From Candidatus Parcubacteria bacterium (GTDB taxonomy: Bacteria > Patescibacteriota > Minisyncoccia > UBA6257 > 2-01-FULL-56-20), in contig DAIDJL010000006.1 of NCBI GenBank assembly GCA_027450205.1, forward strand, positions 1 through 47,772: DNA of 47,772 bases, written 5' to 3'. The notes under the pieces are model-generated. The model was not told the origin of the DNA and did not search any database. It saw nothing but the letters and a program-made list of their open reading frames with translations. The position numbers and the translations under genes are program-made. Below, piece by piece: positions 4,510 to 29,065 of the stretch. How positions within the stretch are numbered: the first letter of the stretch is position 1; every line of letters begins with the position of its first letter.

Positions 4510-11250
<6,741 letters not shown>

Positions 11251-12758: not shown

Positions 12759-13184
12759 ATGGCAAAGAAAGTAAAAACAGTGTTAAAACTGCAGCTTGAG
12801 GCGGGCAAGGCAAATCCTGCGCCTCCGGTAGGTACCGCGCTCGGCCCTCAGGGCATAAACATCCAGGATTTCTGCAAGCAGTTCAACGATGCTACGAAAG
12901 AAATGACGGGCGATGTCGTTCCGGCGGAGATCACCATCTACGAGGACCGCACATTCAGCTTCGTGCTAAAGACCCCTCCGGCATCGGCATTGCTCAAGCA
13001 AGCCGCACATATCGAGAAGGGTGCTGCGAACCCGCTTACCGGCAAGGTTGGTAAGGTGACAAAAGCGGATATCCGCAAGATCGCCGAACGTAAGCTTCAG
13101 GACCTGAACACGGATAATCTGGAAGCTGCTGAAAAGATCATTGCAGGCACCGCCCGCAATATGGGAATCGAGGTTACTCCGTAA
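12759..13184 (+). CDS. rplK: 50S ribosomal protein L11
   Basis: [34 protein letters not shown]..; ends ARNMGIEV. Confidence 0.96.
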
Positions 13185-14141: not shown

Positions 14142-14798
14142 ATGACAGTTGCCACGACAGCGAAGACCTATGATCGCCAAACCGCAACGTTTCTCGCGGT
14201 GGTCGGTCAGAATATGCCGGAAATCTCCGGCGACGTGATGCAGGGATGGATCGAGAACCCGCGTGCGCTTCAAAACGCGCTTCGCACGGCTCTTTGCCCG
14301 CCGGAAACGGCCGCCACTCCGCGCGAATTCAAAACGTGGAAGACGGTGAAGATCGGAACGCAGAAATCGGTGAAGGACCTCTCGAAGGCGCTCACCAACA
14401 ACGGCTTCCGGATCAGCGACTGGGCCGCGGACATCCTCAAACGGACGCCGCTTGCCGAAACGGAAATGGAAATTGAGCTCGTGCTCGTTTCCGTCGCCGA
14501 CCTCGGCTTCACGAAGACAACCCGCCGCGACGCGATCTACAACCGCGCGAAAGAACTGGGTCTCGACCTGATTCCCGCGGAAGTCGGCCCGCAGCTCCGT
14601 CTCACTTATTCGGATCAGCCGATGGGTGAGTGGATACTCATGGGTATGGAACCCATCGCTCGCTCCGATGGCTACCTCGTCGCGTTCAACGTGGCACGCC
14701 ACGTGGACGGCCAGTGGCTTAGCACGAACTACGGCGACCCCGACGGTGGGTGGAGTCCCGGCCGCCGTTGGGTGTTCGCCCGCCGCAAGCAGAATTAG
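14142..14798 (+). CDS. DGR-diversified target (variable) protein, 218 aa, no signal peptide
   Basis: 3' end contains VR matching the TR downstream; SD AGGAGA; N-terminal FKTWKTVKIGTQKSVKDLSKAL..RISDWAADIL. Confidence 0.9.
   Translation: MTVATTAKTYDRQTATFLAVVGQNMPEISGDVMQGWIENPRALQNALRTALCPPETAATPREFKTWKTVKIGTQKSVKDLSKALTNNGFRISDWAADILKRTPLAETEMEIELVLVSVADLGFTKTTRRDAIYNRAKELGLDLIPAEVGPQLRLTYSDQPMGEWILMGMEPIARSDGYLVAFNVARHVDGQWLSTNYGDPDGGWSPGRRWVFARRKQN
14658..14785 (+). repeat. DGR variable region (VR)
   Basis: 128 nt aligned without gaps to TR 15165-15292: 18 differences, 17 at TR adenines; invariant 20-nt 3' end CGTTGGGTGTTCGCCCGCCG. Confidence 0.96.
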
Positions 14799-14867
14799 TC
14801 CTCGGGCACTGGGTCAATTGATCCTTACTTTGACTCTGTAGCCCTTAGCCCTTTGCATTTTCTTTGA

Positions 14868-14904
14868 CCCGCGTTTGGATAACCTCCGACGCGGGCTTCT
14901 TTTT
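14868..14904 (+). terminator. Terminator after the DGR target gene
   Basis: CCCGCGT..ACGCGGG followed by CTTCTTTTT. Confidence 0.7.
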
Positions 14905-15164
14905 GCCGACATGGTAAAATGGAAATCAGATAGTAGGCCTCACACAAGCCCGCGGCCACGGTTGCGGACGGCCGAATTCGAGTATCACTGGATGCGGAAT
15001 GGCGACGGGTACGCTTGCCGCCAGCGTCGTCCTTTAACACTTCAAAAAAATGAAGATACTTGGTGCGTTGTGCTCGTGAATTACCCAAGCAGGGGAGATT
15101 CCGAATTAGATACAGCTTCAAGAGTAATCGAGGAGCAGTGGCGCAGATGGCGCAACGCACGTTC

Positions 15165-15292
15165 GCTAACTCCGATGGCAACCTCAACGTGTTCAACGTG
15201 GAACGCAACGAGGACGGCCAGTGGCTTAACACGAACTACGGCAACCCCGACAATGAGTGGAATCCCGACAACCGTTGGGTGTTCGCCCGCCG
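15165..15292 (+). repeat. DGR template region (TR), part of a noncoding template RNA
   Basis: AAC/AAT-rich template with A-specific differences to VR; no supported CDS carries it. Confidence 0.95.
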
Positions 15293-15301
15293 AAACTCTC
15301 T

Positions 15302-15604
15302 TTATTTCCCCGCTCTCGCGGGGTTTTCTTTCGCCTTATTCGCTTGGCGCATCCATCCTCCAAGCTGTTTTCCCAATTCATTAAAGTTTTCCGAAAGCGT
15401 AATATATTTCTTATTGTCGAGAGCCTTTATTTCCCAAAGCACTTGCAAGAAGAATTTTACGAGATCGAGCCGCGTCGTTGCTTTTTCGAGATGCAATGAT
15501 TTTTGCTCCGGCTTTGCGTAGCTCGCCGAGTAAAGGAGTTCAAGCGTTTCGACCAGCAGACGGTCGATCTTTATGCCAAGCGAGTATCTTGAATCTTTCG
15601 GCAC
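15302..15604 (-). CDS. avd: Avd-like four-helix-bundle DGR accessory protein (true N-terminus probably upstream, towards 15698)
   Basis: VPKDSRYSLGIKIDRLLVETLELLYSASYAKPEQKSLHLEKATTRLDLVKFFLQVLWEIKALDNKKYITLSENFNELGKQLGGWMRQ; the reading extends upstream as LPIIQRFISAYKAWHEFLPH. Confidence 0.85.
   Translation of the reverse strand: MPKDSRYSLGIKIDRLLVETLELLYSASYAKPEQKSLHLEKATTRLDLVKFFLQVLWEIKALDNKKYITLSENFNELGKQLGGWMRQANKAKENPARAGK
15308..15329 (+). terminator. Hairpin terminator immediately 3' of TR
   Basis: CCCCGC-tctc-GCGGGG followed by TTTTCTTTC. Confidence 0.75.
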
Positions 15605-15674
15605 ATGAGGCAGGAACTCATGCCAGGCCTTGTACGCGCTGATGAAGCGTTGGATAATCGGAAGCTGAGGTGTC

Positions 15675-15685
15675 GGGGGGGGGGG
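15675..15685 (+). repeat. G11 homopolymer tract at the avd/RT divergent junction
   Basis: Eleven consecutive G, between TGTC and TTACATG. Confidence 0.9.
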
Positions 15686-15702
15686 TTACATGTTGCATTT
15701 TT

Positions 15703-16692
15703 ATGAAAAAAGAAATGGTGGGCGGTTTTGAAAAAATCGCCGCGACAGAAAATTTATTGGAAGCGTGGCGCGAATTTTTGCCCGGAAAGCGCGGCAAGCG
15801 CGACGTGCAAGAATTTCAACTGCGGCTGATAGATAACATTTTATCACTAAATTCTGATTTGCTAAACTGCCGCTATCGCCACGGCGGGTATATGGCGTTT
15901 AAAATTTCCGACCCGAAACCGCGCGATATCCATAAAGCGAGCGTGCGCGATCGGCTTTTGCATCATGCGATCTACCGACAGCTTTATCCATTTTTCGACA
16001 GAACATTTATCGCTGATTCATTCTCGTGCCGAAATGACAAGGGAACTCATGCCGCGATGGATCGGTTTCGCGCATTCGGCCGCATTGCGAGCAGGAACAA
16101 TACGAGGACGTGTTGGGTGCTCAAATGCGATATCAGAAAATTCTTTGCAAACATCGACCACGGAATTTTAACGGAAATTATTTCGCAATATACGACCGAC
16201 AAGAAATTGACCTGGCTCTTGCGGGGAATCATTGAAAGTTTTTCATCGACACGGCCCGGCGTAGGGTTGCCGCTTGGCAATCTTACTTCGCAGTTGTTCG
16301 TGAACATCTACATGAACGAATTTGATCAGTTCGTAAAGCATAATCTGCGAGCGAAGCATTACCTCCGTTACGCAGATGATTTTGTTATCTTCGCGCCGAA
16401 CTCGGAATGGCTAAAAATAATTCTGCCGGAAATATCGAATTTTCTCCGGAATCGGTTAAAACTGGAATTGCACCCTAAAAAGGTTTCCATCGCGTCCCTC
16501 GCTTCTGGCGTGGATTTTCTCGGCTGGGTACATTTCCCGGATCACCGCGTTTTGCGGACGGCAACTAAGCAGCGGATGATAAGGCGCATTGCTCAAACTG
16601 AAAAAGAAGAAACATTGGCATCGTATCGCGGACTTTTGGGGCATGGCAATGCAGAGAAGATTAAAAATAAATATTTGCCGCTTGCAGGGTAG
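15703..16692 (+). CDS. DGR-type reverse transcriptase
   Basis: DIHKASVRDRLLHHAIY, CDIRKFFANIDH, GLPLGNLTSQLFVNIYMNEFDQF, YLRYADDFVIF, FLGW motifs; adjacent TR/VR. Confidence 0.95.
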   Translation: MKKEMVGGFEKIAATENLLEAWREFLPGKRGKRDVQEFQLRLIDNILSLNSDLLNCRYRHGGYMAFKISDPKPRDIHKASVRDRLLHHAIYRQLYPFFDRTFIADSFSCRNDKGTHAAMDRFRAFGRIASRNNTRTCWVLKCDIRKFFANIDHGILTEIISQYTTDKKLTWLLRGIIESFSSTRPGVGLPLGNLTSQLFVNIYMNEFDQFVKHNLRAKHYLRYADDFVIFAPNSEWLKIILPEISNFLRNRLKLELHPKKVSIASLASGVDFLGWVHFPDHRVLRTATKQRMIRRIAQTEKEETLASYRGLLGHGNAEKIKNKYLPLAG

Positions 16693-16910: not shown

Positions 16911-17060
16911 ATGATCGTTTGTTCGATTTGTTCCAATAGCGACTGGTGCGACGACGATTGCGATTGCGCGTGCCACGACGAGGATTTTGATGACGATGAG
17001 GACGAATTCGATGAAGACGATCTGGACGATGAGGACGACATCGAGCCCGAAGAAGATTAG
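16911..17060 (+). CDS. Cys-rich, extremely acidic mini-protein (49 aa)
   Basis: MIVCSICSNSDWCDDDCDCACHDEDFDDDEDEFDEDDLDDEDDIEPEED. Confidence 0.55.
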   Translation: MIVCSICSNSDWCDDDCDCACHDEDFDDDEDEFDEDDLDDEDDIEPEED

Positions 17061-17069
17061 GCCACCACC

Positions 17070-17207
17070 ATGACGCCAATCCTTACCATCTGCGGTTTCA
17101 TTGTTTTATACATTATGGCTCGCCGGATGGCGTCGCTGAAGCGTGATGATCAACTCGGCTTCCGGCTCCCGAAAAAGTCCTGGTGGCAAAAATTACTCGG
17201 AAAATGA
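17070..17207 (+). CDS. Small membrane protein (45 aa), filamentous-phage minor-coat-like candidate
   Basis: MTPILTICGFIVLYIMARRMASLKRDDQLGFRLPKKSWWQKLLGK; ATGA overlap with the next ORF. Confidence 0.6.
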   Translation: MTPILTICGFIVLYIMARRMASLKRDDQLGFRLPKKSWWQKLLGK

Positions 17208-17371
17208 ACTGGGATTTTTTCAACGGATTTTGGGCTGGCGCGCTTTCCATTGCGCTTGTCGTCTTCGCGCTCATCTGGTCGGTGGACGAGAAGGACGGCG
17301 ACGATGAGGATGATGACGATTACCACTACGAGTCGATCGACGACGATCATAACCACATCCAACCCGCATGA
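17204..17371 (+). CDS. Small membrane protein with acidic/His tail (55 aa)
   Basis: MNWDFFNGFWAGALSIALVVFALIWSVDEKDGDDEDDDDYHYESIDDDHNHIQPA; coupled by ATGA overlaps at both ends. Confidence 0.65.
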   Translation: MNWDFFNGFWAGALSIALVVFALIWSVDEKDGDDEDDDDYHYESIDDDHNHIQPA

Positions 17372-17523
17372 CCTTCCAATACTTCATCGGCGCAATAATT
17401 GTTACGTTCGTTCTCAACTTCTGCATTGTGGCGCTTGTTGACGGCGTGGTCGGGATCTTCCTCAACGTTACGGGAAGCAAGTGGCTCAAGGTCGTGGTCA
17501 AAAACGACGGGCTGAACTACTGA
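17368..17523 (+). CDS. Small membrane protein (51 aa)
   Basis: MTFQYFIGAIIVTFVLNFCIVALVDGVVGIFLNVTGSKWLKVVVKNDGLNY; overlaps the previous stop. Confidence 0.6.
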   Translation: MTFQYFIGAIIVTFVLNFCIVALVDGVVGIFLNVTGSKWLKVVVKNDGLNY

Positions 17524-17524
17524 C

Positions 17525-17650
17525 ATGCAGCCGCTCGATCAAATCTTTTTGCAGTGGTCGGCCGTGGTAAACCCTTCCTGGATTCTTGCCCTTTTTGCAT
17601 TAACCACCTTGCACGCTTTCTTCTTCACTTTCATTGATAACTGGCTATGA
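17525..17650 (+). CDS. Small membrane protein (41 aa)
   Basis: MQPLDQIFLQWSAVVNPSWILALFALTTLHAFFFTFIDNWL; ATGA overlap with the next gene. Confidence 0.55.
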   Translation: MQPLDQIFLQWSAVVNPSWILALFALTTLHAFFFTFIDNWL

Positions 17651-17961
17651 GTAAACAAAGGTCGAATAAAAATAACAACAACAAAGCTATGTTCAAGAAA
17701 ATTTCGCTTTGGGTCTCGGGCGCAGGCGCAGCTGTCGTCGGCATGATTGCCGCAGCGGCCGCAAACGCGCAGACGATTCCGGCAGGGAGCTTGACCGTGC
17801 CGTCCTCGACGGTTACGAATCTCCTGGCCTCGGTGTCCAACATCTTCACGGATCAGGGCATCTTGGGCCTCGTCGTGGTCGCCGCCGCGATCCCGCTCGT
17901 TTTCTACTTTGCGAAGCAGGTCATCGGCCTCCTTCCGAAGTCGCGAGCGCGCACCCACTAA
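17647..17961 (+). CDS. pVIII-like coat protein candidate 1 (signal peptide, one TM, basic tail)
   Basis: MFKKISLWVSGAGAAVVGMIAAAAANA|QTIPAG..GILGLVVVAAAIPLVFYFAKQVIGLLPKSRARTH. Confidence 0.7.
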   Translation: MSKQRSNKNNNNKAMFKKISLWVSGAGAAVVGMIAAAAANAQTIPAGSLTVPSSTVTNLLASVSNIFTDQGILGLVVVAAAIPLVFYFAKQVIGLLPKSRARTH

Positions 17962-18033
17962 GCGCAGCTTTGCCGCCCCGCTTAGGGCCTATAGGCGAGG
18001 GGATGCAGTGAGGACACCCCTTCGCGTATGCGC

Positions 18034-18270
18034 ATGAAAAAAATCGTTGCCATTTCAATACTCGGAAGTTTGGCGCTTGCGCCTGTTTTCGCGTTCGCGC
18101 AGGCGGCGTCCGGCACGATCCAAATGCCGTCCGATATGACGGCCCAGATTCTGACCCAGGCGACCGCTTTACTCGGATCGTTGAGCTCGTACATGTCGCT
18201 TATCATCGGCGTTCTTCTGGCCCTTGTGGTGGTCGAATTCGTGATCGGCGCTATCAGGCATAGGCAATAA
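18034..18270 (+). CDS. pVIII-like coat protein candidate 2
   Basis: MKKIVAISILGSLALAPVFAFA|QAASGT..MSLIIGVLLALVVVEFVIGAIRHRQ. Confidence 0.7.
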   Translation: MKKIVAISILGSLALAPVFAFAQAASGTIQMPSDMTAQILTQATALLGSLSSYMSLIIGVLLALVVVEFVIGAIRHRQ

Positions 18271-18294
18271 CATGGAACGCCCCCGCCCACCACC

Positions 18295-20214
18295 ATGAAC
18301 AGCAAAAAATTATATACAGGCATTTTTCTCGGCGCACTGTTCTTCGCGGTTGCGGTTTTCATCGTGCCGCACCTTTCCCATGCCGCCACGTTCGAGTGCG
18401 ATTTCAACAACGTGAACATAGGCGGCGATACCGGATGGTACAACTGTCCGGGCATGGATTTCTCCGACCAGTCGCAGATATATACATTCAGCGGTTTTCC
18501 CGCAGGGGGAACGATGGTGCAGGTATGCGCCGGGAACGACACGAGATTTCACGGCTGCGGCATTTTTTATACCGACAGCAGCGGAAACCTGACGTTCGGG
18601 GACGTGTATGCGGCGAGCGGGGACTCGTGGCTCCATTTTGCGAGCGGCAGCGACAACAGCATGAGAAGCGACAGCCCGATCTACGGCACGACCGCGATCG
18701 CGCCGTCGTATTCCCTCAACCTGGTTACGCCGGCCTCGAACGGATCGCTCGCGGATTTTTCCCAATGGACGTTCAACTACGGCGGGCAGAATCTCATCAC
18801 GACCTCGGACAATTATTATATCGACGTTCAGTATTACAATTCTGATTATTCCGTATACGGCGAAGATCAGAGCGCGCAGTTTTCCGGGAGCACCTTCGCG
18901 AGCGGGGGAGCGAACATCAGCTTCAATAAATCGAAAACGCTTCCTGCCGGGAATTATTCGGCATATGTGGGCTTGGTAGACGCATCGAACTACAACTACA
19001 TCGTCAATAAAAGCTTCAACTTCACTGTCGTGCCTGGGCCCGCCGTGTTCACCTGGAACGCGGACACGGGGAGATATGAGGGATCGTTCAGCCCTGCGAG
19101 CGTAACGCCCGGAACCCCCGGATTGTTTTACATATACACCTCGGACGGCACCGATCTCTCCGTGGACGACAACGCTTTTGCGGTTTCCTGCCCTGGACAG
19201 TACGGCATAAGCAACCCCGGACAGTTTGACAGCACGGGTTCGCTCATCAAGGACAGCAACAATTATCTCTATGCCACGTGGAACTGGTGGGGCTGCGGGC
19301 AGATCGCCACGATCGCATTCGGGAATAAGATAACGGCGCCGTACGATTACGCCATATCGCCCTATCCCAATTACGTGGGCGATAAAATCTATCTGTCCGA
19401 CAGCCCTGTTACTCCGGTGGCACCGACGGTTCCGCCCGCATCGGTCTCGCTCTTGTTCCCTACGAACGGCACGACCTCGCCGGATTTCAGCAACTGGGTC
19501 GTCGGGTGGAATGGCGACGTGCCGTACGGCGAGATGCACGTCGTCTACGGCATGTCGAGCTCGTCCTTGAACTACGACGACCATATTGATTTCAGCCCGT
19601 TCGTTTCGGCGAACCCGCTGCCGATCTACAAGAGCCAACCGCTATTTTTCATACCGCTCGCGATTCCGGCGACCTGGTACGCGCAGGTCATGGACGTGGG
19701 CGCGACCGAAACGGTGTTTTCCAACATCGTGAGTTTCCAAATCAATCCGAATTTTGCCAATCCGACCTCAAATGCGACCGATACGACCCTCGCGGGGCCG
19801 TTCTTGGGCGTAGGGGGAGGGGAAACATCGTCCACGATCCCAAATCCGACAACGAATTGCCAATATACGAGCTCCAGCTTCCTTTCCGATCCGGTAGGGA
19901 ATATCCAAAACGGCATCTGTAGTGCTTTCGTATTCCTGTTCATCCCGAACGGCGCCGAACAGACGGCCTTGAATACCCAATTCACGAACACCTGGACGCA
20001 AATATCGAACCGCGTGCCGTTCGGCTACGCAGGGATCATTATGACCGCCTTCCAAAGCTTCAAGGAAGGTTCAACGACAAGCACGCTCATCACGAGCTCG
20101 ACTTATATCGCGCTCTCGTTGGTGCTCGATCCCTTGAAAACGGGGATCTCATTCATGCTCATCCTTCTCCTCGCTTTCGCCATTCTTCATTTCGTCCGGA
20201 ACATCACGCTATGA
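18295..20214 (+). CDS. Large secreted, C-terminally membrane-anchored protein (639 aa), pIII/adsorption-protein-like
   Basis: N-terminal signal sequence, long Ser/Thr/Gly-rich ectodomain, C-terminal TM (ISFMLILLLAFAILHFVRNITL); position between pVIII-like and pVI-like genes. Confidence 0.65.
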   Translation: MNSKKLYTGIFLGALFFAVAVFIVPHLSHAATFECDFNNVNIGGDTGWYNCPGMDFSDQSQIYTFSGFPAGGTMVQVCAGNDTRFHGCGIFYTDSSGNLTFGDVYAASGDSWLHFASGSDNSMRSDSPIYGTTAIAPSYSLNLVTPASNGSLADFSQWTFNYGGQNLITTSDNYYIDVQYYNSDYSVYGEDQSAQFSGSTFASGGANISFNKSKTLPAGNYSAYVGLVDASNYNYIVNKSFNFTVVPGPAVFTWNADTGRYEGSFSPASVTPGTPGLFYIYTSDGTDLSVDDNAFAVSCPGQYGISNPGQFDSTGSLIKDSNNYLYATWNWWGCGQIATIAFGNKITAPYDYAISPYPNYVGDKIYLSDSPVTPVAPTVPPASVSLLFPTNGTTSPDFSNWVVGWNGDVPYGEMHVVYGMSSSSLNYDDHIDFSPFVSANPLPIYKSQPLFFIPLAIPATWYAQVMDVGATETVFSNIVSFQINPNFANPTSNATDTTLAGPFLGVGGGETSSTIPNPTTNCQYTSSSFLSDPVGNIQNGICSAFVFLFIPNGAEQTALNTQFTNTWTQISNRVPFGYAGIIMTAFQSFKEGSTTSTLITSSTYIALSLVLDPLKTGISFMLILLLAFAILHFVRNITL

Positions 20215-20474
20215 TCACCTATTACCTCATCCTGATCTTTCTGTATCTCCTGGGGCTCATCGTCTCGCCCTTACGACTTCTGCCCATCGCGTCGCTTTCG
20301 GTGAACCTCACGGGCACGCTCACAAGCGCGGGCAACTATCTCGCGCTCTTCGATATTTTCCTGCCCGTCGGCACGCTATTCACCGTCTTTGGCATTGTGA
20401 TCGTGATCGAGGGCGCTTACTTCACTTACAAGGCCGTGAAATGGGTTTATACCAAGATTCCGGGCATCAGCTAA
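20211..20474 (+). CDS. pVI-like polytopic minor coat protein candidate (87 aa)
   Basis: ATGA overlap with the previous gene; hydrophobic MITYYLILIFLYLLGLIVSPLRLL..FDIFLPVGTLFTVFGIVIVIEGAYFTYKAVKWVYTKIPG. Confidence 0.6.
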   Translation: MITYYLILIFLYLLGLIVSPLRLLPIASLSVNLTGTLTSAGNYLALFDIFLPVGTLFTVFGIVIVIEGAYFTYKAVKWVYTKIPGIS

Positions 20475-20481
20475 CCATGAC

Positions 20482-21471
20482 ATGCGACATCTCGATCTAT
20501 TTTCCGGCATCGGCGGCTTCGCTCTCGCGGCGCAATGGGTTTGGGGCGACGAGTACGAGAACGTCGGCTTTTGCGACAACAATAAATTTTGCCAAGCGGT
20601 TTTAAAAAAGAATTTTCCCCATGCGAAAATCTATTCTGACATCAGGGAGTTATCAATCGGGCGACTTATTGCCGACGCCGACGACGGCGGACGTGTTCAC
20701 GCCGAATCTCAAAAGCTCGCAGGTGAAAAAGGGAAGCAAGCACAGCGTAAATTTGCCGAAAGCTATCAACTCGATCTCCTCACGGGCGGTTTTCCGTGCC
20801 AACCCTTCAGCTTTGCCGGGAAGCGTCGGGGCAAATCGGATGACCGTTATCTCTGGCCTGAAATGTTGCGAATTATACAAGAGACAAGGCCCCGTTGGAT
20901 CATTGGCGAGAACGTTGCTGGGATCGTCAATCTGGCGCTCGACCAAGTGCTGGCTGACCTGGAAAACGAAAACTACGAAGTCCAGCCGTTTATTATTCCA
21001 GCTGCTGCCGTCCAAGCCCCGCATCGGCGAGATCGGGTTTGGATTGTCGGATTTAATGCTGCCGACGCCCGTCGCGAGCGAAATGACCGGAGCGGAATAC
21101 ACAAAGACGGTAAATTACAAAGACGGGGTCTTTTATCGCCGATCCGCGGGAAAAGGGGAGAGACACGGGGCGAGATTGGGGCAGATTCTGCCCAGATTGC
21201 CCGAAATCTTGCCTACGCCAAAGGCGCAGGACAGCCGGGCTGGCTATACGGACCGCGGCAAGTCAAATTTTGGGGAGACGATCCAGGGATCAGTTGGCTT
21301 GAAGCTGCAGCCGCTCTTTGTGGAGTGGATGATGGGTTTTCCGCCGAATTGGACGGATTTAAACTTACCGCAAAACAGCACCGGGTAGAGAGGATAAAAT
21401 CGTTGGGCAACGCCATTGTGCCCTGGGTGGCAAAAGAAATTATGGAAACGCTAAAGGTCGTGGATGTATAA
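20482..21471 (+). CDS. DNA (cytosine-5-)-methyltransferase
   Basis: DLFSGIGGFALAA, GGFPCQPFSFAGKRRG, GENVAGI, QAPHRRDRVWIVG, SLGNAIVPWVA motifs. Confidence 0.95.
   Translation: MRHLDLFSGIGGFALAAQWVWGDEYENVGFCDNNKFCQAVLKKNFPHAKIYSDIRELSIGRLIADADDGGRVHAESQKLAGEKGKQAQRKFAESYQLDLLTGGFPCQPFSFAGKRRGKSDDRYLWPEMLRIIQETRPRWIIGENVAGIVNLALDQVLADLENENYEVQPFIIPAAAVQAPHRRDRVWIVGFNAADARRERNDRSGIHKDGKLQRRGLLSPIRGKRGETRGEIGADSAQIARNLAYAKGAGQPGWLYGPRQVKFWGDDPGISWLEAAAALCGVDDGFSAELDGFKLTAKQHRVERIKSLGNAIVPWVAKEIMETLKVVDV
20621..21388 (+). CDS. Nested alternative-frame ORF inside the C5-MTase gene (255 aa; LPTP-repeat protein)
   Basis: LLPTPTTADVFTPN / MLPTPVASEMTGAEY / ILPTPKAQDSRAGYT repeats and LFVEWMMGFPPNWTDL; resembles phage proteins annotated next to dcm genes. 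Confidence 0.45.
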   Translation: MRKSILTSGSYQSGDLLPTPTTADVFTPNLKSSQVKKGSKHSVNLPKAINSISSRAVFRANPSALPGSVGANRMTVISGLKCCELYKRQGPVGSLARTLLGSSIWRSTKCWLTWKTKTTKSSRLLFQLLPSKPRIGEIGFGLSDLMLPTPVASEMTGAEYTKTVNYKDGVFYRRSAGKGERHGARLGQILPRLPEILPTPKAQDSRAGYTDRGKSNFGETIQGSVGLKLQPLFVEWMMGFPPNWTDLNLPQNSTG

Positions 21472-21483
21472 TTCAATTAATAA

Positions 21484-21726
21484 ATGGTGCAACATACTAA
21501 GGAGGCTATAATCGAACAGTATCAAAAGATGAAGGATTCCGCGAAGCTAACGCAACGCGAGATGGAAATTTTTGAATTGCGATATGGCATTACCGACGGG
21601 AATACTCGAACGCTCGAAAAAGTTGCCAAAGCCTTCGGAGTTACGCGGGAGAGAATCCGGCAGATTGAAGCTAAAATACTTTGGAAAATAGGCTTGGATG
21701 AAACTGACAACGAAAATCCCGCGTAA
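21484..21726 (+). CDS. Sigma-70 region 4-only protein (80 aa)
   Basis: [48 protein letters not shown]. Confidence 0.85.
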
Positions 21727-21912: not shown

Positions 21913-23586
21913 ATGCTACCCATAACAAAGCAGCAAAAAAAGGTTTTAGACTTCATAAAGGATTTCATCAAGAGAAATTCTTTCCCTCCCACGCTCGAAG
22001 AAATTGCTTCGGGTTTAAAGCTTTCTGCGGTTTCAACCGTGCATCAGCACGTAAACGCATTGATTCATAAAGGACACCTACAGAAAAGAGAAAATTTCGC
22101 ACGGGCTATTGAGGTCAAAAAAGAAGAAAAAATTTCTGACTTTGTTGAGATACCACTTCTCGGATTAATTGCTGCCGGCGCGCCGATCGAAATGGTGCAA
22201 TTACCAGAACTAATAAAAGTACCTCGCGAATTTGTAGTTGGAAATAGAAAACATCACGCATTGCGGGTTCAGGGACACAGTATGCAGGACGCCGAAATAT
22301 TTAACGGCGATATCGTGGTGATTTGCGAACAACCGAAAATTGAAAATGGCGGAATCGGAGTCGCGCTAGTGAATGGCAAGGCAACTCTTAAAAAAATTTA
22401 CTGGGAAAAGAATGTGTATCGTCTTCAACCAGCAAACGCTGATTACGAGCCGATATTTGTGAAAGAAAAAGATTTGGAAATTAGGGGCAGGCTTACGGGG
22501 ATTGTTAGAAGTAGATTTGAACTTGTTACTAAAGAAGGCAATCTCTTGCCGCTCACTAGGACAGCTAACACTTTTGATCAGAGGCTTCAGATTTATAATC
22601 GGCGTTTCATCGGAAATAAATCGAAATTGTTAGGATTCATTTCGGACATCGTTGCAGAAAAGTGCGGATTATACCAATCATTCTGCGATATTTTTAGCGG
22701 TACTGGTGCTGTTGCAAATCACTTCAGTCGTCCAGGAGTTAAGGTTATCGCTAACGATATTTTGGGTAGTAGCTACATCAGTTTAAAATGTTGGCTTGAA
22801 ACAACCGCCTACGATGCGGAGAGGATTGCTGGTTTGATCAACCACTTAAATAACCTAAAAACATCGGGTCAAAATTACGTTTCCAAAAACTTCGGCGGGA
22901 CGTATTTCACTGTTGCAAATGCAAAAAAGATAGGTGCTATAAGAGAAGAGATCGAGGTTCTCCAGGTTTCCCCACAGGAAAAGGCGATACTCTTAACGTC
23001 ATTGATTTATGCAATGGATAAAGTTGCAAATACCGTAGGTCATTATGAGGCATACAGAAAGGTTCTCGACACGATTCAAGAAGTGAAATTATTAGTTCCT
23101 GATATAAATGTTCAAAACAATCAAAATAATAAAGTCTATAACAAAGATGCGAATAAGCTGATTAGGGAAATCGAGAGTGATATTCTATACATTGATCCTC
23201 CTTACAATTCTCGCCAATACGGTGATTCGTATCACTTACTCGAAAATATAATTTCTTGGAAGAAACCGAAGGTTTTTGGAGTCGCCAAGAAAATGGAAGA
23301 ACGGGCGCATCTTAAAAGCGAATATTGCCTAAAAAGCGCTCCTGAGGCATTTCGTGATCTGATTTTGAATGCCAAGACAAAACATATCCTTTTGTCGTAC
23401 AATAATACCGCTGAGACTAAAAATAGCCGCTCTAATGCCCGAATTTCGGATAAAAGCATTTTAGAGACTCTGCGGATGAGGGGAGCGGTCGATATTTTCG
23501 AAAGAGATTATAGGGGTTTTACTACGGGCAAAAGCGATGCCTCTGGTAATTCGGAACGGGTTTTTTACTGCAAAGTTACAAAATAA
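21913..23586 (+). CDS. LexA-like SOS repressor fused to an N6-adenine DNA methyltransferase (557 aa)
   Basis: N-terminal LexA wHTH and S24 peptidase (IPLLGLIAAGAPI cleavage region, GHSM Ser, NGKATLKKIY Lys) then MTase (NRRFIGNKSKLLGFI, FCDIFSGTGAVANHF, LYIDPPYNSRQY). Confidence 0.92.
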   Translation: MLPITKQQKKVLDFIKDFIKRNSFPPTLEEIASGLKLSAVSTVHQHVNALIHKGHLQKRENFARAIEVKKEEKISDFVEIPLLGLIAAGAPIEMVQLPELIKVPREFVVGNRKHHALRVQGHSMQDAEIFNGDIVVICEQPKIENGGIGVALVNGKATLKKIYWEKNVYRLQPANADYEPIFVKEKDLEIRGRLTGIVRSRFELVTKEGNLLPLTRTANTFDQRLQIYNRRFIGNKSKLLGFISDIVAEKCGLYQSFCDIFSGTGAVANHFSRPGVKVIANDILGSSYISLKCWLETTAYDAERIAGLINHLNNLKTSGQNYVSKNFGGTYFTVANAKKIGAIREEIEVLQVSPQEKAILLTSLIYAMDKVANTVGHYEAYRKVLDTIQEVKLLVPDINVQNNQNNKVYNKDANKLIREIESDILYIDPPYNSRQYGDSYHLLENIISWKKPKVFGVAKKMEERAHLKSEYCLKSAPEAFRDLILNAKTKHILLSYNNTAETKNSRSNARISDKSILETLRMRGAVDIFERDYRGFTTGKSDASGNSERVFYCKVTK

Positions 23587-23590
23587 ATTT

Positions 23591-25414
23591 ATGAAAAGAG
23601 TCTGGTCGCTTTCAACAACCGTAAGGAATCCCGAAAGAATTCAGCCTTTCCTCAATGTCTTAAAAGAGATGGATGGAGAGGCCTTTGATGAAGCTGGGCA
23701 AGTAAAGTTTCAAACTTTATTGATTCAAAATCGGCTATACCAGCCGACTGGTCTTTCGGAGAGAATGTTGGAGTATTACGAAACATCTGGAGATAAGATG
23801 AGTTTCGATCAAGCTCAAGAGATTTTTGAGCATATGAAGAACAGGTCTACTGTGCTCCGAAATGATCTTGGGCTGAGAGGGAGAACGTCAGTTGCGCCAC
23901 TCACTAAAATGGGTCTGGCCGTCGCAAAGCAAACCTCCGGACAAATCAAAATTACTGATTTAGGCAAAGCATTCTTGGAAAATAAAATAGATATCGGAGA
24001 CGTTTACTTTAGATTTTTCATAAAATGGCAAATACCTAATCCGGAAAGCACCGAATTTAGTGATGATGGAACCTACAATATAAAGCCATTCGTAGGTGCG
24101 TTGCACTTAATTGATCGGGTGAATAAAAAAGAAATCGAGAGAGGCAATGAACCAAAGGGGTTGAGCCGGGACGAATTCGATTTATTTATACCTTCGCTGG
24201 TGAATTATGGAGAAATAGATTCCTATGCGGAAAAAGTTATTGCCTTGCGAGATTTGATGAATGGCAAGAGCAAGCAGGAAAAACGGCAGATATTGAACGA
24301 TTCGAGCCGCAAATTTGCAATAAATTTTCTCGGTACTGATGACGTTAAAGAGGTCGATAAGCTTATTAATAACTTGAGCGATTATGGAGATAACGCAATC
24401 CGATATTTCAGGCTCACGAGGTATTTCCATATTCGTGGCGGCGGCTTCTACATAGATATTGAACCGAGAAGGTCTGTTGAGATAAGCAATCTCCTCGAGC
24501 ACGACAGTGCCGCCGCGCAGACCTTTGAATCAAAGGAAGCATATCTAGACTATGTATCTGATATCACTCAGCCTAAATTGCCCTGGGAGACAAAAGAAAA
24601 GCTAACCGAAATCGTAGAAAAACTTATAGAAGAAGTGGGTGCATATGAAAAGAGGCTTGGCCTCTCGGCAGCGCATCGCTTGGTATACGAAACATTTTCT
24701 GAATCACAATTAAAGTCCTATGCCGAGGAGCTTCGTACCTATCGCAGAAGTCTGCAAGACAAGGAAAACCACAATGTTTCTCAAAATGTCGAGAAAGTTA
24801 AAGAGTATGTCGTCGCGCTCGAGAACATCTTCGATGCGGAAGATAAGCCAGTCGCTCTCGAAAAGTATGTTTCTCTTGGCCTCAACGCGCTGAACGACGC
24901 TCTACAGATCAAACCGAATTATCCAGTGGGCGATGACAACGAACCAACTTTTACTGCTCCGGCGAATACTCCCGACATCGAATGCTTCTATGAAACCTAC
25001 AACGCGATATGCGAAGTTACCATGCTCACAGGGCGTGATCAGTGGTACAACGAGGGCCAGCCAGTGATGAGGCATTTGAGAGATTTCGAGAACAAGAATA
25101 CAAACAAAAATTCTTATTGCTTATTCGTTGCACCCCGACTCCACAGGGATACTGTGAACACTTTTTGGACATCAATCAAATACGAATACGAAGGTCGGGC
25201 GCAGAAAATTATTCCGCTTTCAATCAGTCAATTCATTCAGCTGCTGAAGGCGCTTATCGCCATTAAGGAGCGCGGGGGATTCCTCAACCATGCGCAACTT
25301 TTTCAACTTTATGACTTGATTGTTGGAAAATCGTCCACGGCAACAAATGCCTCAGAATGGATCGATGGAATACCGTCCGTGATTGATGCCTGGAAGACTT
25401 CCGTTATAGCTTAA
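23591..25414 (+). CDS. AlwI/BstNBI-family type IIS restriction endonuclease
   Basis: WSLSTTVRNPERIQPFLNVLKEMDGEAF.., YFRLTRYFHIRGGGFYIDIEPRR, LPWETKEKL, PDIECFYETYNAICEVTMLTG..EGQPVMRHL..YCLFVAPRLHRDT..IIPLSISQF, parallel to N.BstNBI motifs. Confidence 0.88.
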   Translation: MKRVWSLSTTVRNPERIQPFLNVLKEMDGEAFDEAGQVKFQTLLIQNRLYQPTGLSERMLEYYETSGDKMSFDQAQEIFEHMKNRSTVLRNDLGLRGRTSVAPLTKMGLAVAKQTSGQIKITDLGKAFLENKIDIGDVYFRFFIKWQIPNPESTEFSDDGTYNIKPFVGALHLIDRVNKKEIERGNEPKGLSRDEFDLFIPSLVNYGEIDSYAEKVIALRDLMNGKSKQEKRQILNDSSRKFAINFLGTDDVKEVDKLINNLSDYGDNAIRYFRLTRYFHIRGGGFYIDIEPRRSVEISNLLEHDSAAAQTFESKEAYLDYVSDITQPKLPWETKEKLTEIVEKLIEEVGAYEKRLGLSAAHRLVYETFSESQLKSYAEELRTYRRSLQDKENHNVSQNVEKVKEYVVALENIFDAEDKPVALEKYVSLGLNALNDALQIKPNYPVGDDNEPTFTAPANTPDIECFYETYNAICEVTMLTGRDQWYNEGQPVMRHLRDFENKNTNKNSYCLFVAPRLHRDTVNTFWTSIKYEYEGRAQKIIPLSISQFIQLLKALIAIKERGGFLNHAQLFQLYDLIVGKSSTATNASEWIDGIPSVIDAWKTSVIA

Positions 25415-25416
25415 TT

Positions 25417-26187
25417 ATGAAAACAAACCTTATTCACAAAGGAGATTGCGTTGAGATAATGCAAAAAGAAATTGATAAAGGGTCAATAGACCTAATTTTT
25501 GCCGACCCTCCATATAACCTCTCTGGCAATGGGCTTCAGTGGAAGGGTAATACGACAGGGGGTGATTGGTTTATGGTGAATGAGGCGTGGGATAGAATGT
25601 CAGCGCCGGAGTATATGCAATTCACCCGACAGTGGATCGGCGCCTCGCATCAAACCTTGAAGGACGGCGGATCGATTTATATTGCTTGTAGTTATCATAA
25701 TATCGCCGAGGTGATGATCGTCTTAAGACAACTGGATTTTAAGATTAATAACATAATTACATGGCAGAAAACGAATGCCATGCCCAACATGACTCGGAGA
25801 GTTTTTACTCATTCGACTGAATTCATAGTGTGGGGAGTGAAAGGTAAAAAGTGGACTTTCAATAATGAGGATCTGAAGAATCTAAATCCCGATAAACAAG
25901 CAGACGGAAGCCCTAAAGCGCTCAGGGATGTGTGGCCACTCCCGCTAGTTCAGGGTAAGGAAAGAATTCGGGGCAAGGACAACAGGGCTATCCATCCAAC
26001 ACAGAAGCCGGAAGAACTCCTTCGGCGAGTAATAGTAGCTTCAAGCAATAAAGGGGACATAGTGCTTGACCCTTTTTTGGGAAGCGGTACAACGACCTAT
26101 ATGGCGAAAAAACTTGGTCGAAAGTGGATTGGCATTGAGAAAGAAGGTAAATATGTCGAAGTCGCTAAAAAAAGAATGAATATATGA
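25417..26187 (+). CDS. DNA methyltransferase (N4-cytosine/N6-adenine, beta-like motif order)
   Basis: FADPPYNLSGNG near the N-terminus, DPFLGSGTT near the C-terminus. Confidence 0.92.
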   Translation: MKTNLIHKGDCVEIMQKEIDKGSIDLIFADPPYNLSGNGLQWKGNTTGGDWFMVNEAWDRMSAPEYMQFTRQWIGASHQTLKDGGSIYIACSYHNIAEVMIVLRQLDFKINNIITWQKTNAMPNMTRRVFTHSTEFIVWGVKGKKWTFNNEDLKNLNPDKQADGSPKALRDVWPLPLVQGKERIRGKDNRAIHPTQKPEELLRRVIVASSNKGDIVLDPFLGSGTTTYMAKKLGRKWIGIEKEGKYVEVAKKRMNI

Positions 26188-27242
26188 GCGATGCCGTCGT
26201 TGTAAAATCTACCTCCCGGACTTCGGCGCAAACTGAAGACATAGTCCTAAGAGAAGGCGAGAAAACGCGCCTTCTCTTTCGCCCTATGATGGTTGTGAAC
26301 CCAAAAGAACCAAAGCACTCTATAAAGGGTTGTTTTATTTTTCAGAAGAAAAAAACGTCAGGTAATTGGGATGATTATAAGGTCGGTGATCTCACAACCC
26401 TGAAAGATGCCGAAGGAATAAAGCTAGAACTCCATAGCGCCGAAGTCTATAATTTGCTCAACGAACTAAATAGCAGATACAGTATTTTTGATAAGTATGG
26501 AATAAAATTCGGGACAAATAAATTTGTGCTAACGCCCGACAATGTTGAAGAAGTAATCGAGCAGCTGCTTAAAGACCCTTCTAACCTCGAGAAATTCAAA
26601 TCTCTTAAAAGAGAAGATTTGGAAAAAATAAATGTCGTTACAAACATTAGTAACCTCGAATCGCTTTTGCAGGTATGGGAGAAAAATAAGACCAACTCCT
26701 CTGAATCGTTCTGGCAAGGTGTTATCAAGGATGATTCATGGTTGCTCTCGCAGGTCTTTTCTACGCCCGTCGTACTTTTTAAAGACGAGGCGTATATGGG
26801 AGGGAAAAACGTCGATAATAAAGGGGGATCGATCACGGATTTTCTCTTTAAGAATAAACTTACCGACCATGTGTTGATTGTGGAAGTGAAGACACCGGAA
26901 GCCGACCTTCTGGGGACGGCTTATAGGGGCACCTATTCGATCAGTGCCGAACTCTCTGGTGGTGTAAACCAACTCCTCCAGCAGAAGGATAAGCTGCAAA
27001 AAGAATTTTATACAATAACTGGCAAAAGCGATGAATCATTCGGGGTGATTAATCCGAGATGTATGCTGATTGTGGGAAATTTAAACAAGCTTGGAAACGG
27101 AGAAAGAGACTCGTTTGAACTGTTCCGAAGAAATTCAAAGGACGTTGAAATCATTACCTATGACGAGCTTTTTGCGAAAACGGAAATGCTCAAGAATCTC
27201 CTTTCGCAAGAGCCTTTTATTAAAGGGCTGAAGAAAAAATAA
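26184..27242 (+). CDS. Shedu-like anti-phage nuclease (DUF4263)
   Basis: DFLFKNKLTDHVLIVEVKTPEADLLGTAYRGTYSISAELSGGVNQLLQQKDKL; ATGA overlap with the MTase. Confidence 0.85.
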   Translation: MSDAVVVKSTSRTSAQTEDIVLREGEKTRLLFRPMMVVNPKEPKHSIKGCFIFQKKKTSGNWDDYKVGDLTTLKDAEGIKLELHSAEVYNLLNELNSRYSIFDKYGIKFGTNKFVLTPDNVEEVIEQLLKDPSNLEKFKSLKREDLEKINVVTNISNLESLLQVWEKNKTNSSESFWQGVIKDDSWLLSQVFSTPVVLFKDEAYMGGKNVDNKGGSITDFLFKNKLTDHVLIVEVKTPEADLLGTAYRGTYSISAELSGGVNQLLQQKDKLQKEFYTITGKSDESFGVINPRCMLIVGNLNKLGNGERDSFELFRRNSKDVEIITYDELFAKTEMLKNLLSQEPFIKGLKKK

Positions 27243-27923: not shown

Positions 27924-28868
27924 ATGAAACTCAACGATGCAATAAACTTGTACCTGAATTCCCGGCATCAAACGAGAAAATCCAGGACGGTTACGCAAGA
28001 TTTCATGCACCTCTCGGATTTCATGTTCTACATGAGGGACATTGATCGCGAAGTGGAATCGATCACTCTCGAAGAATGCGAAAGCTGGCTGGGAGTCGTG
28101 AAGGAACTGGGATACGACGACAACACGCGGATCAAAAAGGCGATTGCGCTCAAACTGTTCTTCGAGCATATGTTCCGGCGCCGCGTTCAGGTGGGCTTTG
28201 ACCCCGATCTTATCCCGATACCAAGAAAGGTATTCAAATTCCCGCGGGTTGCGACGGAAGATCAGTATCAGCGGTTACTTGCGGCGGTGAAGGATGAGGG
28301 GAAGTGCGGCGAAATCACCTATGCGGTTCGGGATAAGGCGATCCTTATGCTTATCCACGACACTGGAGCGCGAAACGGAGAAATCGTTTCTCTCGACATG
28401 GACGACATCGATCTTGGCAGGAAGTCGGCGCGAATTAAGACGGAAAAGTCGCGCGGCGAACTGCCATATCGGGAAATCTTTTGGAGCCGTGAAGCTAACG
28501 AACAGCTGAAAAAGTGGGTCGTCATCCGGGAGAAGTTTCTCACAACGATGGAACTTGATGAACCAAAAGCAGTGTTCTTTGGGATCAAGGCGGGGAGCGG
28601 TGCGTCAAACTATTCCGCGAAGGGGAGGAGATTGCAGGTTGGTTACGTTTCCGAACTGTTCCGCAAATACTCGAACAGGGCGGGGCTGCCAATCATCAAT
28701 CCTCACTCTTTCCGCCATCTGTTCGGCCGCGATCTGGCGAAGAAGAAGGCAAACAACTTCGTCATCTCGAGCATGATGGGCCACGCCAGGGTCGAGAGCT
28801 CGTATCCTTACACGATGCTTTTCGGGAAGGACCGGGAAGAGGCCTATCGCAGTTTGCGAGGGGAATAG
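27924..28868 (+). CDS. Tyrosine recombinase/integrase (XerC/D-like)
   Basis: LIHDTGARNGEIVSLDMDDIDL, HSFRHLFGRDLAKK, MMGHARVESSYPYTM. Confidence 0.93.
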   Translation: MKLNDAINLYLNSRHQTRKSRTVTQDFMHLSDFMFYMRDIDREVESITLEECESWLGVVKELGYDDNTRIKKAIALKLFFEHMFRRRVQVGFDPDLIPIPRKVFKFPRVATEDQYQRLLAAVKDEGKCGEITYAVRDKAILMLIHDTGARNGEIVSLDMDDIDLGRKSARIKTEKSRGELPYREIFWSREANEQLKKWVVIREKFLTTMELDEPKAVFFGIKAGSGASNYSAKGRRLQVGYVSELFRKYSNRAGLPIINPHSFRHLFGRDLAKKKANNFVISSMMGHARVESSYPYTMLFGKDREEAYRSLRGE

Positions 28869-28974: not shown

Positions 28975-29065
28975 TTACGATCGATTTTAACGATTTTTTT
29001 AAATTATTGGAGGCCTCACGAGAACTATGGGGATCACGGTTGAGGGCTAAAAATTACCGCGATAG

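Follow-up and report, generated by a model that had tools for sequence, protein, structure and literature searches.

The window analyzed here, a 47,772-nucleotide stretch of a Candidatus Parcubacteria genome (contig DAIDJL010000006.1), carries at positions 16,911 to 20,474 a cassette of small membrane protein genes that, on present evidence, derives from a filamentous phage (inovirus). The cassette sits within an integrative element of ~15.9 kb that encodes a tyrosine recombinase and is inserted at the 3' end of rplK, and the element appears to carry the coat and tip genes of a filamentous phage in working condition. Since it has neither an assembly motor nor a replication gene, it must borrow them or use its coat proteins otherwise. 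We postulate an inovirus-derived integrative element that has kept its structural genes and relies on a source in trans for its assembly motor, a proposal that we regard as evenly balanced between true and false.

To provide references for the ultra-small bacteria of the candidate phyla radiation (CPR), 388 class genomes and 384 phylum genomes were screened for inoviruses with the Zot family (PF05707), and the neighborhoods of the matches were read. Several Zot-bearing loci share the order pIII, pVI, Zot, Rep, with coat genes ahead. In one of them (L027, genome G807), a Zot of 234 amino acids (aa) that matches PF05707 and the PHROG Zot/pI families, a 266-aa HUH Rep (PF23343), and a coat (phrog_1646) lie close together, next to a 356-aa pIII and an 85-aa pVI; judged by this gene content, L027 is a genuine CPR inovirus. 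The C-terminal domain of the 639-aa protein of the window matches the L027 pIII-position protein (pairwise BLASTP E=2e-6), and both share the pattern C..F.LFIPNG...PF.Y. In addition, the 87-aa protein matches the L027 pVI-position protein, which lies immediately 5' of Zot (pairwise BLASTP E=5e-10). When profiles built from the four known elements were compared with the 533 open reading frames (ORFs) of seven loci, the L027 pIII (E=2e-6) and pVI (E=7e-10) were the sole convincing matches. That two neighboring genes match, and in the correct order, is very unlikely to be chance. The initial annotation of the window had argued for a filamentous-phage-like cassette from gene order alone; the homology of the pIII C-terminus and pVI to consecutive L027 genes now supports an inovirus origin beyond resemblance. 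Ahead of pIII, L027 also resembles the element in having a coat-like protein with a signal peptide, a transmembrane (TM) segment, and a basic tail. The two differ in what follows pVI, which in L027 is Zot directly, then a small protein and Rep, whereas the element has a C5 cytosine DNA methyltransferase (C5-MTase) there, together with a tyrosine recombinase and cargo.

The profile searches suggested for the small ORFs succeeded for pIII and pVI and gave no family match for the coats and tiny ORFs; across Pfam, PHROGs, and NCBIfam, no cassette protein had a significant family. PDB profile searches gave no match, and a scan of viral contigs with the pIII and pVI profiles and the L027 Zot revealed no relatives. 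An hhalign comparison of pVI with that of the more distant inoviruses L016-L018 aligned the correct region without reaching significance. The only tblastn match among phage records belonged to a microvirus and was judged to be chance. Likewise, the pVI profile gave six matches (E 0.003-0.009) in the 388 class genomes, and the two inspected (L121 and L122) lie amid unrelated housekeeping genes and were discarded as chance. The G098 element encodes an extra coat-like protein of ~201 aa (L014:1784-2386), in which a large outer domain precedes the TM segment and basic tail, and the inoviruses L017, L018, and L027 carry similar coat-with-domain genes.

Four carriers of the element, all of the same family, were found: the genome of the window (G000, an 860-kb assembly), G902 (locus L013), G117 (L015), and G098 (L014). 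The 639-aa protein, searched against 200 whole genomes from its order, matched only in G117 and G098 and there only over its C-terminal 250-280 residues, and a search of 85,488 species (one genome each) with the pVI-like alignment added one further carrier, JAKABL01 (L013, taken as G902). Each cassette gene occurs in the same order in all four elements (acidic CxxC protein, four tiny ORFs, two coat-like proteins, pIII-like, pVI-like), with identities of 41-88%. Ratios of nonsynonymous to synonymous change (pN/pS, Nei-Gojobori) are mostly 0.15-0.5 for the cassette ORFs, including those of 41 to 55 aa, and 0.5-0.7 for a few pairs of tiny ORFs. Orthologues in conserved order with such ratios confirm that the cassette is more than a run of chance ORFs, and the substitution pattern shows the operon to be under purifying selection in the four genomes.

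The two parts of the pIII-like protein differ in this respect. Its C-terminal part is 61-81% identical between elements (pN/pS 0.23-0.40), whereas identity in the N-terminal part is 91% for the pair G902 and G117 and 30-40% for the remaining pairs, which implies either exchange of the outer part or its much faster evolution. The protein is modular, with N-termini apparently swapped onto a retained C-terminus, as in a receptor-binding tip.

The features of the element are collected in Table 1. All ORFs described in the initial annotation lie where it placed them, although the first one, for the acidic CxxC protein, had been passed over. Hydropathy agrees with the signal peptide, TM segment, and basic tail claimed for the two coat-like proteins, with a secreted 639-aa protein anchored at its C-terminus, and with a polytopic 87-aa protein. 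The four tiny membrane ORFs said to be coupled are all present, and ATGA overlaps were confirmed at 17204, 17368, and 17647, but there is none at 17523/17525. A single helix had been suggested as a check on both coat-like proteins; the predicted structure of protein a is all-helical, albeit at low confidence (pLDDT 57), and the prediction for the pIII-like protein (pLDDT 32) was unusable.

Table 1. Features of the element in the window (positions are those of the window)
Feature	Position	Strand	Remarks
attL, 3' end of rplK (L11)	13158..13184	+	core TATGGGAATC; matches attR and the G117 rplK 3' end
CxxC (zinc-finger-like) ORF, 75 aa	13315..13542	+	left end; conserved in elements; no Pfam match
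Winged helix-turn-helix (HTH)-like putative regulator, 103 aa	13463..13774	+	all four elements, 68-79% identity; weak TrmB-like HTH match below cut-off
Acidic CxxC protein, 49 aa, not membrane	16911..17060	+	opens cassette; kept in all four elements; pN/pS mostly 0.2-0.4
TM protein with basic tail, 45 aa	17070..17207	+	conserved across elements
TM protein with acidic/His tail, 55 aa	17204..17371	+	ATG start, GTG at 17183; conserved
TM protein, 51 aa	17368..17523	+	conserved across elements
TM protein, 41 aa	17525..17650	+	78-88% identity among elements
Coat-like protein a (pVIII-like)	17647..17961	+	signal peptide, one TM, basic tail by hydropathy; 70-80% identity among elements
Coat-like protein b (pVIII-like)	18028..18270 (alternative start 18034)	+	signal peptide, one TM, basic tail by hydropathy; 65-84% identity
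pIII-like tip protein, 639 aa	18295..20214	+	signal peptide, variable N-part, conserved C-terminal domain and TM anchor; C-domain homologous to L027 pIII-position protein
pVI-like protein, 87 aa	20211..20474	+	several hydrophobic stretches (polytopic); homologous to 85-aa L027 pVI-position protein
C5-MTase	20482..21471	+	PF00145, E=1.8e-41; in all four elements; occupies the Zot place of L027
Small sigma-70 region 4 protein	21484..21726	+	PF04545; orthologue in G117 only
Conserved protein, 91 aa	27284..27559	-	N-part with two Cys, one TM, basic tail; adjoins integrase in all four elements
Tyrosine recombinase	27924..28868	+	PF00589
attR, displaced rplK 3' end	29022..29050	+	ATGGGGATCACGGTTGAGGGCTAA; counterpart of the present rplK 3' end

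The attachment (att) site could be read from several relatives. The G117 element is flanked by two nearly identical copies of the rplK 3' end (ATGGGAATCACTGTTGA / ATGGGAATCACCGTTGA). In the congener G906, rplK is directly followed by gatB, that is, an empty site; the G098 assembly also has an empty rplK-gatB site, with the element on a different contig (L014), which was negative when tested for circular ends. Contigs of G901, G904, and G905 end inside the apparent left end of the element. Among 38 genomes of the family searched, 84-96% identical copies of the recombinase occur only in the four carriers; a 41% identical integrase in G911 was set aside, as it comes without the cassette. Collectively, an integrase, direct att repeats at a gene 3' end, and an empty site in a relative show, at the level of genome comparison, that this is an integrative mobile element. 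The initial annotation had recognized the cassette but not the att sites in rplK, the missing Rep, or the recurrence with swapped cargo, all of which have now been found.

The element lacks two hallmark genes of inoviruses. As the initial annotation had pointed out, a C5-MTase follows pVI and the window holds no Zot-type ATPase: no ORF matched a Zot-like family, and the element contains no plausible Walker-A ORF. The search that it proposed for the rest of the genome was equally negative, as PF05707 found nothing in the whole 860-kb assembly. Two CPR-specific Zot profiles (A4 and A7) detected none in the four carriers and recovered the control genomes, which contribute to the profiles and hence show that the search runs, not its reach to new families. 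Given a completeness of about 96-97% for the carrier genomes, a Zot on a missing piece is possible in one genome and unlikely in all four. The HUH Rep family PF23343 was absent from the carrier genomes and present in the controls G807 and G906, and no Rep was found among the element genes, other Rep types being covered by the Pfam scan of the window genes. We rejected the HUH Rep of G906 as a sign of a helper inovirus; it belongs to a different element (L118:9295-11759), where it stands beside a serine recombinase. By a definition resting on marker genes, the element is thus not an inovirus: its pIII-type tip with a C-terminal anchor and the pVI-type polytopic protein beside it are present, and pI/Zot and Rep are absent, though it is derived from one and may work like one.

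In the proposal that we favor, the zot-rep block would have been lost, or replaced by the C5-MTase and cargo, and the element would persist as a dependent one. Its coat, tip, and pVI proteins would still enter the membrane, and an ATPase acting in trans would allow their assembly; this ATPase would come from a Zot-bearing inovirus in the same cell or from the host, as one of the HerA/FtsK-superfamily ATPases (VirB4/VirD4-type) of its type IV secretion system (T4SS). The N-terminus of pIII, swapped between elements, would act as a receptor-binding module, and movement between chromosomes would finish with integrase-mediated insertion at rplK. The host of the window element carries ATPases of this superfamily that belong to the CPR T4SS, namely P-loop_TraG beside PrgI and a PF18895 pilin, and a VirD4-like protein elsewhere; such ATPases occur in each of the seven genomes examined, carriers and non-carriers alike. 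That filaments of motor-less, coat-carrying CPR elements are built by such a host ATPase, e.g., that of the conserved CPR T4SS, is an idea we hold to be unlikely. Several points count against dependence on a motor in trans. Zot is rare in the class, exceeding the cut-off in 3 of 388 genomes; the carrier genomes yielded no helper inovirus; and the T4SS ATPases as motor are a guess. The element has no Rep or known origin from which the single-stranded DNA that an inovirus packages would evidently arise, which weakens the case for packaging of the element itself. None of the coats and tiny ORFs significantly matches a known inovirus coat, and their assignment is supported by topology, order, and conservation. 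Nor has a particle or filament, transcription, or an excised form been seen.

The initial annotation had offered a cryptic inovirus, a satellite, or a domesticated filament as options. Of these, domestication is possible, if somewhat doubtful. The coat, tip, and pVI proteins would then form a short membrane-anchored fiber or adhesin for attachment of the epibiont to its host cell, without extrusion, and the integrase would merely spread the cassette along with defense and stress cargo. The loss of both zot and rep from all four elements while the structural genes stay under purifying selection fits this, as do the variable secreted N-part of pIII above a conserved anchor and a beneficial cargo (Shedu, restriction-modification, and a diversity-generating retroelement [DGR]; thiol/metal genes in G098 and G117). 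Yet an adhesin would not need two coats, pVI, and four tiny proteins, all of which are retained, and mobile elements usually retain genes that aid their spread. The missing hallmark and replication genes could also mark a decaying prophage remnant that has lost zot and rep, but consecutive structural ORFs are intact, in the same order, and at low pN/pS in four genomes, and tiny genes would not survive decay. Simple decay is therefore disfavored by purifying selection, and we consider it improbable.

The small proteins might instead belong to a conjugative element, as VirB2-like pilins and as membrane proteins with an accessory role, a match that the initial annotation had named as contrary to its own view. 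CPR bacteria do have a conserved T4SS, and the L027 coat gives a sub-threshold TrbC/VirB2 match. Family scans of the element, however, revealed no VirB4, VirD4, VirB6, or relaxase; the host T4SS with its PF18895 pilin is located elsewhere in the genome, and the cassette proteins match neither. As the pIII/pVI homology also points to an inovirus, a conjugation module is very improbable. Scarcely any weight falls on the idea that the element encodes an ATPase too divergent for the Zot profiles and the Walker-A scan. Inovirus surveys often encounter atypical pI genes, in about 30% of species (PMC6813254), but no sufficiently long conserved core gene is left unexplained (the large core proteins are only the C5-MTase, the integrase, and pIII), and no plausible P-loop ORF exists in the element.

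The cargo between the core genes differs among elements. That of the window comprises a DGR, a fusion of LexA to a D12-class methyltransferase, an AlwI-type endonuclease with an N4/N6 methyltransferase, and Shedu, with the defense genes at 21913-27242. G098 and G117 carry thiol/metal-related genes, and G902 another DGR. The DGR of the window (14142-16692) has a reverse transcriptase at 15670-16692, a template at 15163-15295, and a variable repeat at 14656-14788, at the 3' end of ORF 14142-14798; 18 of the 19 differences between template and variable repeat fall at template adenines. In the G902 copy (L013:11305-14679), the DGR-type variable protein joins a type IV pilin N-terminus to an FGE-sulfatase domain, and the reverse transcriptase frame is broken within an ERERER-coding repeat that recurs near the start of the variable protein.

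Within the C5-MTase gene, a 255-aa ORF (20621-21388) is open in another frame in all four elements (70-77% identity) and matches phrog_1008, "DNA methyltransferase" (6e-29). Synonymous change in the methyltransferase frame is low, and so long an open frame survives in 2 of 2000 synonymous shuffles; by these measures, the two are a dual-coding pair. The 91-aa protein beside the integrase has, by hydropathy, the topology of a coat or exclusion protein. Outside the element, rpoB and rpoC are apparently fused into one 2246-aa ORF (4510-11250), and G117 has a 2250-aa ORF.

Among systems in which one filamentous phage relies on another, the Vibrio satellites of the RS1 and TLC types keep replication genes and borrow virion proteins. 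The element resembles them if it depends on functions from another phage, and differs in keeping the virion proteins and lacking the ATPase and Rep. The Patescibacteria T4SS (PMC12857230) is comparable as a host machine with HerA/FtsK-superfamily ATPases and pili, a possible motor donor, although the cassette proteins match neither its PF18895 pilin nor its other parts. CPR inoviruses are already known from the survey of Roux et al. 2019, which detects inoviruses by the pI-like ATPase, pI/Zot being the one conserved inovirus marker (PMC6813254). The cryptic CPR inoviruses of that survey share with the element inovirus genes in CPR chromosomes and short TM structural proteins, but were found through the marker that the element lacks (PMC6813254). 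A limited literature search brought up no description of inovirus-derived elements that have structural genes but no pI.

Since detection by pI misses pI-less elements by design, a mobile, selected, inovirus-derived element without ATPase and Rep shows that marker-based surveys overlook such elements. It raises the question of what moves the coat proteins and which DNA, if any, gets packaged. If true, the host-ATPase reading would mean that filamentous-phage assembly has been made dependent on a host secretion machine. CPR bacteria, whose viruses are poorly known, gain an integrative element family with an att site in rplK, swappable cargo (defense, DGR, metal/thiol), and what appears to be a swappable surface tip.

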